In this document: one piece after another, positions 18,519-44,584 of the stretch | How positions within the stretch are numbered: position 1 is the stretch's first letter | Layout: the number at the start of each line of letters is the position of its first letter | Origin: Klebsiella pneumoniae | GTDB taxonomy: Bacteria; Myxococcota_A; UBA9042 | Direction of reading: 5' to 3' | Assembly (NCBI GenBank): GCA_945889325.1 | Contig: CAMDBH010000001.1 | Span: 62,001-126,000, forward strand | Length of the DNA stretch: 64,000 bases | The notes under the pieces: model-generated | What the model was told of the DNA's origin: nothing | Databases searched by the model: none | The model's input: the letters and a program-made list of their open reading frames with translations, nothing else | Made by a program: the position numbers and the translations under genes

Positions 18519-20153
18519 ATGACAGTTGCCGTAGTCGTGTTGGCGGTCGCAGTTGTGGCTGCGGCGGGGCTGTTTCTGCTAAAACCTATTGAGCCTGAAG
18601 CGTTTATACTTGAGCACGTCGTGCCCGAGGACGCCGACGCCTTGCTCTGGCTCGATTCGCTCGCCCCATTGGCGCAAAGTTTGGCGCAGTTAGCCGCGAG
18701 GGTTCCCGGCACCGCGGGGATTTTGGACGCAGGCAAACTGGTTCTCGGCGTCGATCTGCGCGATGCCGACGCGGTTGCGCGCGCAGGTCTGCGCAATGAT
18801 GCGGGGATTTGTGTCTTTCGCTGGCACGGCGCGCTGTGGCTGATTCTACCGATTACTTCGCCCGAGGGTGGGGCACACCTTTCTAGGTTGCTGCAGGGCC
18901 GCGGTTACAGAGTGGGGCCAGGTCTGGGTGCATTCGAAGATCTGCAAAATCATTGGGACATTTTTGATCGCCAACAGGACAAGGTCGCAATAGCGCACTT
19001 GTTCCAGTCCGGCGCGGCGGCGATCTTGCGCTGGCAAATTGCGCCTCGGCCCGCAGACCACGCCAGCGCCGAGTACACTGCTTGGCGCAAAGCCGCACAC
19101 ATGAAGGAAAAAGCGCTGCACGGCGCCCAAGGGCAAATGCACCTGCGCATGGCGTGGCAAAAAGAGGGCCCAGAAATTGCCGCTTTGCACACGGCGCTGG
19201 GGATTGGCAACTTGGTATTTAGCGGCGCGTTGGACAAAATAGTGAGGATGGAGGCTGACTTTGATATGGCCGCCGGCAAGCCGACCTTGCGAATTGAATT
19301 GGCCTGTCAGCCGGGCGATCTGGCTGAGATTGCAAAATTTCACCAGAATTTTGTCGTGTCTACCGGACCCGGTCTGCTGGATCTCGGCGCGTTGCTGCCC
19401 GATGAAACGCCGTTGTTTTGGCGCGGGCGTCTGAACCCCGCGATTTTGAACATGTTACCCTCGACGCTGCGCGATCGATTCCTGCCCGCGGCGCTGCTCA
19501 GTTTTTGGCATCCTTCCTTGCAAGGGGTCGACGCGCGTTCTGACTTGATCGCGTTTCTGGACGGTCAGGTCGCCGCCGGGTTGCTGGGTGTTGCCGACGA
19601 TTTCCCTCTAGATCCCTATCTTTGGACGCCGGCAACCTTGCGCAAAGGCCTGCGGGCTTTCGTGGCCGTGTCGCTTCAAACTGACACCCAAGCCGCCCAT
19701 TTCATGGACCGCGTCCGGTCGGCGATCGACACCAGCAGCGAAAAGGCCGTTTCGGTTCAAATGCTTGAATTTAGCGGCTTTTCTGTGGCCGATCCACAGG
19801 GACCTTGGCTGATGTTGCGCAAGGACGCCCAAGTCGTTTTGGTCAGCGGCATCGGGGCTCAAGACGACTTGCAACACATTGCAGACGGCAAATTCCCCAG
19901 CCTGCAGGCGGCAGTGCGCGGCGAGCTGGAGAAATCCGCGGTCCACGGCGCCCAGCTCTGGACCGCACTGCTCACGAGTACGCCGCGCATCGCGCGTTCG
20001 CTGCGCCGCCGCGGCGTGCCAGATTATGTAGTGCAAATGCTAGCATCGGTCGCTGCCGTGGCCACGACTGTGCAATGGACGCAGGACGGCCTGCAGATTC
20101 GTTTGGCGCTGCGTCCGAGCGAACTCGATGCCGATGCAGGGGAGGCGCCGTGA
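18519..20153 (+). CDS. Uncharacterised membrane-anchored protein
   Basis: 544-aa ORF, single N-terminal TM; no confident family from sequence reading; stop codon coincides with start of repeat copy 1. Confidence 0.7.
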   Translation: MTVAVVVLAVAVVAAAGLFLLKPIEPEAFILEHVVPEDADALLWLDSLAPLAQSLAQLAARVPGTAGILDAGKLVLGVDLRDADAVARAGLRNDAGICVFRWHGALWLILPITSPEGGAHLSRLLQGRGYRVGPGLGAFEDLQNHWDIFDRQQDKVAIAHLFQSGAAAILRWQIAPRPADHASAEYTAWRKAAHMKEKALHGAQGQMHLRMAWQKEGPEIAALHTALGIGNLVFSGALDKIVRMEADFDMAAGKPTLRIELACQPGDLAEIAKFHQNFVVSTGPGLLDLGALLPDETPLFWRGRLNPAILNMLPSTLRDRFLPAALLSFWHPSLQGVDARSDLIAFLDGQVAAGLLGVADDFPLDPYLWTPATLRKGLRAFVAVSLQTDTQAAHFMDRVRSAIDTSSEKAVSVQMLEFSGFSVADPQGPWLMLRKDAQVVLVSGIGAQDDLQHIADGKFPSLQAAVRGELEKSAVHGAQLWTALLTSTPRIARSLRRRGVPDYVVQMLASVAAVATTVQWTQDGLQIRLALRPSELDADAGEAP

Positions 20154-20351
20154 GAGCGTGTGAAAAATCCTTTTTTCACGCTCTCGATTGGGGTCTGGTA
20201 TTGGCAATTTCTGCCAATCGACCCAAAGTGGGCTCGGATTCAAATTTCTGGTTCCAGTAATATCATTATCTTACGGAGCGTCCATGCAGAAACTGCTAAT
20301 ACCTGACCCCGCTCAGAGGCTGTGAAATGAATATTTCACAGCCTCTGAGCG
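20151..20351. repeat. Three-hairpin intergenic repeat, copy 1
   Basis: TGAGAGCGTG...CACGCTCTC hairpin + 121-bp core (20190-20310) with 25-bp imperfect inverted repeats + 19-bp-stem hairpin (20310-20351); near-identical to copies 2 and 3. Confidence 0.9.
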
Positions 20352-30326: not shown

Positions 30327-30527
30327 ATGCTGCTGACGCTGACGACGTTTAGTTTTGCCCTCGCCGTTTTGATTTTAGCTTTACATTTCAAAGGCAAGCG
30401 CTGGGATGAATACGTAGTGGGCTTTTTTGCGGTGTTTTTGATCACGTGGCTGGTCACCTTGGGTTTGACCAATTCCTTGGGGGTTTTTCCGGCGATTCGC
30501 ATCGAAAGTTGGTTCGGTGTGCCGTGA
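30327..30527 (+). CDS. Small membrane protein (66 aa)
   Basis: Two predicted TM segments; stop codon coincides with start of repeat copy 2. Confidence 0.5.
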   Translation: MLLTLTTFSFALAVLILALHFKGKRWDEYVVGFFAVFLITWLVTLGLTNSLGVFPAIRIESWFGVP

Positions 30528-30725
30528 GAGCGTGTGAAAAATCCTTTTTTCACGCTCTCGATTGGGGTCTGGTATTGGCAATTTCTGCCAATCGACCAAA
30601 AGTGGGCTCGGACTCAAATTTCTGATTCCAGTAATATCATTATATTACGGAGCGTCCATGCAGAAACTGCTAATACCTGACCTCGCTCAGAAGCTGTGAA
30701 ATGAATATTTCACGGCCTCTGAGCG
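30525..30725. repeat. Three-hairpin intergenic repeat, copy 2
   Basis: Core 30564-30684; about 5 differences from copy 1 by eye over 121 bp. Confidence 0.9.
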
Positions 30726-30776: not shown

Positions 30777-31289
30777 TCAGCGCTGTTGATCGAGCAGTTT
30801 TTGCACGTCGCGCAGCGTCGGATCAAAATTCGCGTCATCGCGCAGACTTCGCATGATCACATGGCCTTGACTGTCGATCAACACATTCATGGCCACGGGT
30901 AACGGCGCATCTGGGGCAAAGTCGTTGGGCAAAAAGCGCCGCAACGCGCTGCCGTCGGCGTCGAGCAAGGTCGGAACGGCGACGCCGAGCTCGCGGGCAA
31001 AAGCAGCCAAGTCGGCCGGATCTTCGCCCACGCCGACAAACCAGACCGCCAATTTTTGCGCCGCAAACTGTTTGCGCAACGGTTCCAAGCGCGGAACCTC
31101 CGCGCGACAATGGCTTCACCAACTGGCCCCAAAGTGGATCAGCAGCGGATGACCGCGCTCCTGCGCGATCGTGTGGCTTTGTCCTTGCAAATCGGTCAAT
31201 TCCAGCGCTGGTGCGACTTGGACCGGACCTCGCTGCGGCGCCGAACACGCAAGCGCGAACAGAAACACCAAGTGAGACCAGCTACGCAA
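30777..31289 (-). CDS. Candidate selenoprotein: TlpA/thioredoxin-like lipoprotein with in-frame UGA at active site (U-S-H-C)
   Basis: TTG start with SD GGAGGT; lipobox FALAC; ...HPLLIHFGASW-[UGA]-SHCRAEVPRLEPLRKQFAAQKLAVWFVGVGEDPADL...; UGA at 31116-31118; track ORFs 31116-31337 and 30777-31088 are in the same frame; SECIS-like hairpin at 31089-31105. Confidence 0.75.
31089..31105 (-). promoter_or_regulatory. Candidate bacterial SECIS element
   Basis: On the coding strand GCGCGG-AGGTT-CCGCGC; perfect 6-bp stem, G-rich apical loop, 16 nt between UGA and loop. Confidence 0.65.
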
Positions 31290-33597
31290 GACCCCACCTC
31301 CGGCGCAACGCCCATTCAAGACCGAGCAACAACACAAGCCAAATCAACACTTCGGGACGACTCCACAAATCGAGATGGGTTTTTTCGGCCAACTCGGGCG
31401 GATCGCTTTGCGGCAGCGGCACGCCGCCTTTGGGCACCGCCAGATTAAAAACCTGGCCACCGCTCGCCTTGGCCAATTGCTGCAGCAAACGATCGCTTGG
31501 CTGCAACTGGCTCATTTCCAAAAGGGCAGGCAAGCGAACCACCGGCGCCGTCGCGCGCAGCACGCGACCGTCCAGCGCGCCCTCGACAGTGAGCAAGTAG
31601 GCACCCGGCGCACCCGGCGGCAGCGTCAGCACGGCCTGACCATCAACATCTGTTGTGTCAGCCATGGGTTGCAACGTGCGCGCTTCCGCGGCGACCTGCA
31701 CTAGCGGCGCGAGATCAAAACGCAGAGTCAAGTTAGCCAGCGGTTTGCCGCCGGGACTGCGGCCGGTGATTTTTATTTTCAAAGGTTCGCTCGCCGCCTG
31801 CGGCTCACTGGGCGCCTGCAGACGCAGCAAATCCAAATCGGGATCGCGCAGCAGCCAAGCGCTCAGCTGATCGAGTAGCTGATGGTAATCACTTCGGCTT
31901 TTGTCGCGGATGTTGTCCGCCGCCCCCGGTGGAAACGCCCACTGCCACAAGGAATCTGTCGCCAGCACGGCGCTGCGGCCCTCGCCGACTTCGCCGACCG
32001 CCAAGATCGGGTGATCGCGGTCATCGGTGAGCAAGACGCTGCCCTGCTCGCCCGCCTGCAACCCTGTATTGCGCCCGGTAAACGTGTGTTTGGCCCACTG
32101 TGCGGCGTTGATTTCAACCTCTGAACCCAACAAGGTGACGGGGTGCAGTAAGCCGGCGGGCGTGAGTTTTGCGGTCAACGGGCCATCGACAAAGCCGACA
32201 TCATCGGCCACCAACGGCTGCAGGCGAACAGGCAACCAATCAGCAATACCGGTGCCAAAATAGCCACCTGCGCTCAACGTCTGCTTGCCACCGAGCACCA
32301 AAAATGCACCGCCCCCCAACACATAAGCGCGCAATTGCGGCAGGTACTGCTCCACGGCAAAGGGACCAAACGGAAAGTCTTGAAAAATCACCAGATCAAA
32401 GCTCGAAAGCGATTGCTCAAAGATTTCTCGGGTCGGAAATGGAATCAGCGTGGTGTCTTCGGCGGCGGCAAACACGCCAGAGCCTTGGCCGATCATGACG
32501 TAAAAGCTAACCAAATCGACCGCTTCGTTGCCGCGCAAATGCATGCGCAAAAAGCGCGTGTCCCAGGACGGATGGCCCGCCAGATGCAAAACACGTGTGC
32601 GATCGCGGACAACGCGCAGGCCAGCCCAAGCCTCGTTGTTGGTTGTGGTCGCTTCATCGGGCAGAGGCAGGACCGCCGCTTGCAGCAAGTGCGCTCCGAC
32701 ATGCTGGGGGGAGAATTCCATTTGAATTGTACGCAGTTGTGGGCCATCGAGTGCCAACTTCTGCACAGCGACCTGATGGCCGTTGTCGCTGAGTTTCAGC
32801 GTAAATTCACCAGAATGCTTGGCATATCCGCTGATTTCTACATCGACGGCGACTGGCATGGCCGTGCGGGTAAATCCGAACGAACTGCAACGCACTGTGG
32901 CGACGGCCACATCGGCAATGGGCGCATCGTCTGCCACAAAGAAGCTGTGAATTGGCATATGTAGCGCCTGAACCAACTGAGCGCTGTCCGTGTCCAGCGC
33001 CGCACCAGCTGTGCCATTGCGCGCGCGCAGAGCGGCATTGTCTAAACCATCGGATATCAACACCACGCCCGATAGACGCTGCTGGCGTTGGGCCTCGGCG
33101 AGCGCGGATAAACCCGCAAGCAAATCAGTAGCCTGGCCAATGGGCTTGAGCGCGGTGAGTTTGTTGAGCTCCGGCAGCGCCTGCAAATGATCATCGAGCG
33201 AAAAAAGCAGCGCAGGTTGCGTTCGGGAAAGCGAGGCGGCCAGCGACACGGCGCGCTCCCACCGCGACGGGCCTTTGGTGGTGCTTTTTTGTGCCATCGA
33301 CAGCGATTGATCGACGACAATGGCGATTCGCCGCCCGCCGGGACGCACGCTTTCGCTCACCCAGGTCGGCTGATGCCAAACGGCCAAAACGCTTATCACC
33401 GTGAGCAGCCGCAAACCGATAAGCGCCGTGCGCTTGCGTTTGGATTTGAGCGCGCGCAGGTTGATCGCAGCCAGCACAAGCACGAGCAAACCGAGCGTTA
33501 ACGCAAGGATCCGCGGCCATAGCGACCAGCCGAGCGTCCACTCAAGGTGATCGCTCTCCAGCACTTGCGCGAGCACCAACGGCAGGTCAGGGCGCAT
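31282..33597 (-). CDS. Membrane protein with VWA and glutamine-amidotransferase-like region
   Basis: RRIAIVVDQSLSMAQ (MIDAS-like), LSGVVLISDGLDN, AYVLGGGAFLVLGGKQTLSAGGYFGTG; TM at both ends. Confidence 0.8.
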   Translation of the reverse strand: MRPDLPLVLAQVLESDHLEWTLGWSLWPRILALTLGLLVLVLAAINLRALKSKRKRTALIGLRLLTVISVLAVWHQPTWVSESVRPGGRRIAIVVDQSLSMAQKSTTKGPSRWERAVSLAASLSRTQPALLFSLDDHLQALPELNKLTALKPIGQATDLLAGLSALAEAQRQQRLSGVVLISDGLDNAALRARNGTAGAALDTDSAQLVQALHMPIHSFFVADDAPIADVAVATVRCSSFGFTRTAMPVAVDVEISGYAKHSGEFTLKLSDNGHQVAVQKLALDGPQLRTIQMEFSPQHVGAHLLQAAVLPLPDEATTTNNEAWAGLRVVRDRTRVLHLAGHPSWDTRFLRMHLRGNEAVDLVSFYVMIGQGSGVFAAAEDTTLIPFPTREIFEQSLSSFDLVIFQDFPFGPFAVEQYLPQLRAYVLGGGAFLVLGGKQTLSAGGYFGTGIADWLPVRLQPLVADDVGFVDGPLTAKLTPAGLLHPVTLLGSEVEINAAQWAKHTFTGRNTGLQAGEQGSVLLTDDRDHPILAVGEVGEGRSAVLATDSLWQWAFPPGAADNIRDKSRSDYHQLLDQLSAWLLRDPDLDLLRLQAPSEPQAASEPLKIKITGRSPGGKPLANLTLRFDLAPLVQVAAEARTLQPMADTTDVDGQAVLTLPPGAPGAYLLTVEGALDGRVLRATAPVVRLPALLEMSQLQPSDRLLQQLAKASGGQVFNLAVPKGGVPLPQSDPPELAEKTHLDLWSRPEVLIWLVLLLGLEWALRRRWGLA

Positions 33598-34360
33598 CGT
33601 GGTCCGCAGCGGGCGGTGGCGTCCGCGCGCCGCGCCGATAGCGCAGCAGGTGCATCACGTGCGAGTGATCGTCTTTGTAATCAAGGCACAACGCGTACAT
33701 CACAAAATTGACGGCCAAGCGAAAGGCCTGCTCGCGTTGGACCTCGCCGCCGGGCACTACCGCAAGCGCATACCCGCCAACGGGCAAGCGCGCCAACGCG
33801 CCCGCGAAGTCGTTGCGCGTGTACAATACAGCGTAATGGTTTCCGAGTCTTATCCCTTCCAGATCGTTTGAACTGGCGCGGCGGCCGACGGGATGGTCGA
33901 TGCGATAAAACGCCCGAAAAAGTACGTGCGACGGCGGCACCCGCTGCAGGGGTTGCGGAAAAATGCGCGCCAATTCGCGGCGAATGCTCTCATCAAACGG
34001 CTGCGACGCTTCTGTGCGACCGGAATTGTCGATCAAAAGGGTGCCACCGGTGAGCAAGTGCTGCCGCAACTGCGCGATCGCCTGATCGCTCCATTTTGGC
34101 AGCGCGCGATCGCCAGCCAGATACAACAGCGGATAGTAAAAGAGTTGGGCATCTTCAGGTTTTACGCCAACAGGGCTCGCCGCGACATCGATACTTGTGC
34201 GCGAACGCAATTCTTGGGCCCAACTGACTAGCGAAGTCGACGGATCGTTGGCCTGGGGCAGCTTGAGCCACGCCAAATGCACTGCGCTTGTCGTCGGTTC
34301 CAGCGCGCTCAAAGGCGACGGCGAGAAGAACAGCAGCAACGCGACCCATACGAAACGCAT
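33587..34360 (-). CDS. DUF4159-type exported protein
   Basis: FYYPLLYLAGDRALPKWSDQAIAQLRQHLLTGGTLLIDN; start MRFVWVALLLFF preferred. Confidence 0.7.
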   Translation of the reverse strand: MRFVWVALLLFFSPSPLSALEPTTSAVHLAWLKLPQANDPSTSLVSWAQELRSRTSIDVAASPVGVKPEDAQLFYYPLLYLAGDRALPKWSDQAIAQLRQHLLTGGTLLIDNSGRTEASQPFDESIRRELARIFPQPLQRVPPSHVLFRAFYRIDHPVGRRASSNDLEGIRLGNHYAVLYTRNDFAGALARLPVGGYALAVVPGGEVQREQAFRLAVNFVMYALCLDYKDDHSHVMHLLRYRRGARTPPPAADHDAP

Positions 34361-34391
34361 GTGGGCAATGTACACCAAAACAGGCCTTGGA

Positions 34392-34889
34392 TCACTTTGT
34401 CGGTGAGACGTCTTGCGGCACCACTTCAACGCTGCCTTCGGCCTGCGCGGTGCGGCCGCTGCCGTCGGTCACGGACACGACAATCGGGTGGATCGGACCG
34501 GGGAGGCGACTTCCAAGCGCTCCCGTTGTCCCGAGTTCGAACGCATCGGGCGACCAAAGCAGGGTTGCCCGCTCGGCTTCGGCTTCAAGGCGCAAGTCAG
34601 TCGGCCCTTGCGCGATGCGCCATTGCACCGGCGGATGGGCGCCTTGGGCGGTAAGCCGCCACCGCCAGGTTTGACCGACATGAACCTCGTGCAAGCCTAT
34701 GGGCGGCAAGAAAATGCCCGCGTCGCTGGTGCAATTGGACAGGCCGCAAAGCAACAACGGCAGCAGTGTGGTGAAATTTGTCCGGCGGTGGCAGACTATA
34801 GAGCCGTGGCGCCTTGCAGTTAGAGCGATCGGGCTCCGACTCGGGCGAAAAAACGTGAAAATAATCAGGAGTTGTATGTTGGCTCGCAT
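34392..34889 (-). CDS. Short hypothetical exported protein (start uncertain)
   Basis: Hydrophobic LLPLLLCGLSNC followed by beta-rich domain; same strand as VWA cluster. Confidence 0.45.
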   Translation of the reverse strand: MRANIQLLIIFTFFRPSRSPIALTARRHGSIVCHRRTNFTTLLPLLLCGLSNCTSDAGIFLPPIGLHEVHVGQTWRWRLTAQGAHPPVQWRIAQGPTDLRLEAEAERATLLWSPDAFELGTTGALGSRLPGPIHPIVVSVTDGSGRTAQAEGSVEVVPQDVSPTK

Positions 34890-44381: not shown

Positions 44382-44584
44382 TGAGAGCGTGTGAAAAATC
44401 CTTTTTTCACGCTGTCGATTGGGGTCTGGTATTGGCAATTTCTGCCAATCGACCAAAAGTGGGCTCGGATTCAAATTGCTGGTCCTAGTAATATCATTAT
44501 CTTACGGACCATCCAAGCAGAAACTGCTAATACCTGACCCCGCCTCAGAGGCTGTGAAATGAATATTTCACAGCCTCTGAGGCG
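44382..44584. repeat. Three-hairpin intergenic repeat, copy 3
   Basis: Core 44421-44541 (121 bp); about 7 differences from copy 1 by eye; right hairpin one base pair longer. Confidence 0.9.

Follow-up and report, generated by a model that had tools for sequence, protein, structure and literature searches.

A probable selenoprotein of the TlpA/ResA type with a UxxC active site in a draft genome of the Myxococcota

The 64,000-nucleotide stretch of DNA analysed here (the window; positions 62001-126000 of contig 1) very probably encodes a genuine selenoprotein, a thiol:disulfide oxidoreductase of the TlpA/ResA type that is predicted to be secreted and probably lipid-anchored, in which U58 would be the nucleophile and Cys61 the resolving thiol. 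The Sec reading is based on a single UGA in an open homologous frame, a hairpin in the matching register, the presence of SelA, SelB and SelD, the existence of Cys homologs and a ResA-like fold. Together these features of the sequence point to actual Sec incorporation at codon 58. The source assembly is a draft MAG that comprises 128 contigs (3.47 Mb), with a completeness of 84% and a contamination of 0.4%; gene content and named neighbours suggest Myxococcota as its phylum.

As the original prediction held, the gene is one minus-strand frame of 170 residues with a single TGA as its sole interruption, and both the TTG start and the GGAGGT Shine-Dalgarno sequence are where they had been placed (Table 1). 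Apart from the TGA at codon 58, no frameshift or stop is found across the 170 codons. GC3 is continuous across the TGA (0.67 before it and 0.70 after it, with 0.68 in the neighbouring VWA gene), so the two parts appear to be coding in a single frame. The UGA occupies the position of the first Cys of a WCxxC motif, again as proposed, giving the active site W-U-S-H-C of the TlpA/ResA type, and there is no loss of Cys61, of the E64-x-P66 motif or of the subfamily-specific C-terminus. The window has a single occurrence of the signature F-x-A-[ST]-W-UGA-x-x-C-x-x-E-x-P, and none of 100 shuffles contains it. At the N-terminal end, the sequence A-L-A-C is a plausible lipobox with Cys15, Ala taking the place of Leu at -3, and the product is probably lipid-anchored and extracytoplasmic. 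The predicted 8-nt overlap with the upstream VWA gene agrees with the coordinates, the stop codon of the latter being TAG 31284-31282. The selenoprotein gene sits at the 3' end of the DUF4159-VWA pair, an arrangement consistent with co-transcription.

Table 1. Positions in the window of the predicted selenoprotein gene, its elements and its neighbours
Feature	Position	Strand	Remarks
Predicted selenoprotein gene, TlpA/ResA-like thioredoxin-fold lipoprotein, 170 aa	30777..31289	-	TTG start, terminal TGA stop (30779-30777); read-through translation
In-frame UGA, putative Sec codon 58, first active-site Cys position (U-S-H-C)	31116..31118	-	Direct reading
Cys61 (TGT), second residue of the UxxC pair	31107..31109	-	Direct reading
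Shine-Dalgarno sequence GGAGGT, 6 nt before TTG 31289	31296..31301	-	Direct reading
Putative lipoprotein signal peptide MRSWSHLVFLFALA^C15	31245..31289	-	Read by eye from the sequence
bSECIS-like hairpin GCGCGGA-GGU-UCCGCGC	31089..31105	-	Stem of 7 bp, apical loop A[GGU]U, spacing from the UGA 17 nt
VWA_2/GATase1-like gene, upstream, 8-nt overlap with the selenoprotein gene	31282..33597	-	
DUF4159 gene, transcribed in the same direction as the VWA gene and overlapping its start	33587..34429	-	

The window also contains a near-perfect palindrome, GAGAGCGTGTGAAAAA/TTTTTCACGCTCTC, in three copies (20152-20185, 30526-30559 and 44383-44416), one of which lies just downstream of the selenoprotein gene. 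The palindrome pattern gives 9 matches against 0.85 expected by chance, and is possibly a REP-like or terminator element.

Genes of the same kind are found in many other bacteria. When F-x-A-[ST]-W-TGA-x-x-C-x-x-E-x-P was used as a DNA pattern to scan 84,980 species genomes, at least 120 stretches were retrieved. Among the 120 listed, 118 contain TlpA-like genes with a single in-frame TGA, at least 119 genes in all, while two are chance matches; because the pattern fixes the TGA, the UGA in these homologs is there by construction. Their hosts, among the matches listed, include Rokubacteria, Nitrospirota, Desulfobacterota, Betaproteobacteria, Actinomycetota, Planctomycetota, Acidobacteriota, Calditrichota and others. 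A scan of genome contigs with a peptide pattern made of exact 8-mers of the protein, one of them requiring Cys, gave no match, the pattern being too strict. Four matches to the UGA motif come from Bacteroidota (L125, L165, L224 and L226), and only L165 has a SECIS stem in the main register; some of these four may be sequencing errors or pseudogenes.

Bacterial SECIS elements have been described as having a loop of 3-9 nt, a stem of 4-16 bp, a G in the first two loop positions, a spacing of 16-37 nt and an MFE of -7.5 or lower (PMC13188914). The hairpin downstream of the UGA, with a local energy of -11.4 kcal/mol, lies within all of these limits. By itself it is only suggestive, since 1.4% of codon-preserving recodings reach the same energy. 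Stems of 6 bp and longer in the exact register of the window occur in 55 of the 119 UGA TlpA genes among the matches listed and in 0/23 Cys versions (Fisher p = 7e-6). The nearest UGA homologs carry an almost identical hairpin. A covariance model built from 36 such elements, with the window gene left out, matches 31118-31080 at 32 bits (E 2.1e-6), a score to which the conserved codons contribute a part, and the next match in the window reaches 11.7 bits (E = 0.34). Since the sequences behind the covariation count were picked for having the stem, and are biased by that selection, little weight is placed on the count, and the contrast between UGA and Cys genes is the cleaner test. When 52 nt are folded, a longer competing hairpin of -22.6 to -23.1 kcal/mol, incompatible with the conserved one, is obtained; it is formed in none of the six homologs folded. 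In many of the remaining UGA TlpA genes a hairpin lies further from the UGA, at about 26 nt, which makes a second SECIS register for the same protein motif; it is carried, with a loop CGUGCA or similar, by Betaproteobacterial and other genes (L118, L123, L124, L126, L127, L130, L140, L145, L150, L152 and others).

The TlpA/thioredoxin-like fold claimed for the joined product is borne out by Pfam matches to AhpC-TSA (7.2e-15) and Redoxin (7.5e-12), both of which span the TGA. The AlphaFold model has a pLDDT of 87.8 and a pTM of 0.81, and its top Foldseek match in the PDB is ResA (E 1.7e-13, TM 0.67-0.84), followed by DsbE/CcmG-like and TlpA-like proteins. The protein shares with the Cys forms ResA, TlpA, StoA and CcmG the fold, the position of the active site and, as predicted, the membrane-linked extracytoplasmic thioredoxin type, but would have Sec in place of the first Cys; the alignment puts an Ala at the usual cis-Pro column in this subfamily, with a Pro two residues earlier. 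The NCBIfam equivalogs ResA (NF002854), TlpA (NF047696) and WAxxUGC (NF041054) all score below their cut-offs, the ResA model far below (45 bits against 170). NF041054 likewise represents a ResA-like selenoprotein family, but its Sec motif is xxUGC while that of the window protein is WUxxC, and the score is 31.9 bits against a cut-off of 300. The product is most likely a membrane-anchored thiol:disulfide reductase, its chemistry taken from that of ResA/TlpA-type families, with the substrate and the direction of electron flow likewise predicted.

During translation, SelB carrying Sec-tRNA would bind the hairpin just 3' of the UGA and put Sec in at codon 58, so that the chain would not terminate there. 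Outside the cytoplasm, U58 would attack a substrate disulfide, Cys61 would resolve the intermediate and free the substrate, and the U58/Cys61 pair would be recycled by a membrane reductant.

Most of the machinery for Sec is encoded in the same assembly. SelA, SelD and SelB are all present, scoring 469.8, 373 and 274 bits against curated cut-offs of 267.9, 125 and 242, respectively, and SelB has the GTPase domain, the SelB beta-barrel and both winged-helix domains (SelB-wing_2 and wing_3). In characterised SelB proteins, the winged-helix domains bind the SECIS. The exception among the four sel genes is selC: neither the Rfam model nor a model trained on the family finds a tRNA-Sec in the 84%-complete assembly, and an anticodon-arm pattern and ARAGORN find none either. 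Since the genome-wide covariance searches scored the best 150 of 439 and the best 150 of 1111 first-look candidates, the absence of selC from the assembly is likely, not proven. Matches of the Rfam tRNA-Sec model in this genome (44.5 bits or less) are identified by ARAGORN as tRNA-Ser, Tyr, Gly, Trp, Lys and Arg. A tRNA-Sec is present in 21/21 other genomes of the same family and in 38/53 of the set of relatives. Given the 84% completeness, selC most simply belongs to the part of the genome that the assembly lacks. A tendency of selC to lie near contig ends in relatives was considered as an explanation, and is unconvincing (7/30 against 4.4 expected). In one relative, a phage-type-integrase-like gene lies directly downstream of selC (L075, G003:C187), as expected of a tRNA-Sec integration site. 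A second UGA-bearing gene was not found in the genome, where the other AhpC-TSA proteins have no internal stop; FdhA, considered as an independent selenoprotein, gives only a weak match, also without an internal stop.

A sequencing error or a pseudogene is unlikely to account for the UGA. The better of the two, at a low probability, is that a base-calling or assembly error has turned a Cys codon (TGC or TGT) into TGA, in which case the protein would be a normal TlpA-like lipoprotein with a CxxC site. The change takes one third-position base, the source is a draft MAG in many contigs, and Cys forms of the subfamily are known in the phylum. However, such an error would not explain why a hairpin stands in the SECIS register, as it does in 55 of the 119 UGA genes and in none of the 23 Cys genes; chance would supply it in about 1.4-2% of synonymous recodings; in addition, the closest UGA homologs carry nearly the same hairpin and the genome retains selA, selB and selD. 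A pseudogene with a premature stop, its two halves being relics, is less probable still. The in-frame TGA itself and the lack of an ortholog at the locus in relatives would suit a relic, and with many TTG and GTG codons after the TGA the second half could be translated alone, but the stop falls on the sole codon where Sec would be expected, and the frame downstream of it has kept its GC3, its catalytic and C-terminal motifs and its freedom from further stops and frameshifts. Least probable is that near-cognate suppression, or assignment of the UGA to a different amino acid such as Trp, explains its decoding; the missing tRNA-Sec would favour this, but the gene itself terminates with TGA, the large neighbouring frames read normally under table 11, SelA, SelB and SelD are present, tRNA-Sec occurs in all same-family genomes and any residue other than Cys or Sec at this site would abolish the catalytic nucleophile.

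Homologs carry Cys at the UGA column, as the prediction anticipated. A search of 379 genomes of the phylum gives, apart from the window itself, a Cys-form pair in one genome (G350; 120 and 98 bits) as its best match, with the active sites WCPFS and WCPYC. The closest UGA forms among the matches listed come from Calditrichia (L231) and Acidobacteria (L132 and L201) and are 35-39% identical. All three have the UGA at the same codon as the window gene and have in common with it the insertion PDxxxxDxVPIAxN, which is shorter in the window protein, and the tail SLxDxxNFD; the Cys forms L238 and L266 have the same subfamily features. In a quick tree, the window protein groups with five of these relatives and one short fragment at a support of 90, which is not decisive, and its branch is long. 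The VWA gene is conserved in same-family genomes (36-60% identity). An ortholog kept behind it is ruled out, as none of the same-family relatives has the gene in that slot. The selenoprotein gene has therefore either been acquired in this genome or disappeared from the others.

The same phylum has another, second type of TlpA-like protein with a UGA (L047, L048, L049, L050 and L261, from genomes G036, G043, G055, G072 and G214). These large lipoprotein-like proteins of about 600-700 residues are rich in repeats in their N-terminal regions and end in a redoxin domain, in which the in-frame UGA is at the same active-site position (WUPVC, LUPAC, FUPVC, WUPQC).

Sec at the first position of a UxxC site, which the prediction described as established in some redox families, is indeed of a catalogued and widespread kind: the known UxxC thiol:disulfide selenoproteins include Prx-like, thiol-disulfide isomerase-like and redoxin-family members (PMC13188914, PMC9312934, PMC1088965). 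Like the Prx-like proteins (PF00578, UxxC) and the thiol-disulfide isomerase-like and redoxin proteins (PMC13188914, PMC1088965), the window protein has a domain of the AhpC-TSA/TlpA type with Sec first in UxxC, a SECIS-like element just downstream and known Cys homologs. It differs from them in an insertion of 11-14 residues before the usual cis-Pro position and in the SLxDxxNFD tail, and is assigned by HMM to no single named class. What is new here is a further probable UxxC selenoprotein; its subfamily is small, and specific NCBIfam models all score below their cut-offs for it. A stronger proposal, held tentatively and at somewhat less than even confidence, is that this is a distinct, uncatalogued subfamily of Sec-containing TlpA-like proteins, marked by the PDxxxxDxVPIAxN insertion, the Ala in place of cis-Pro and the SLxDxxNFD tail, scattered in Acidobacteriota, Calditrichota and Myxococcota, switching between Sec and Cys, and possibly with altered chemistry because the cis-Pro is missing.

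Among the papers searched, none deals with the selenoproteins of Myxococcota. Standard-code gene prediction would cut this gene short or in two, and the use of selenium by the lineage would be missed. Since the UGA signature is present in more than 100 other genomes, many TlpA-like selenoproteins in draft genomes may be mis-annotated in the same manner; with a register-matched SECIS model, such genes would be easily recognised.
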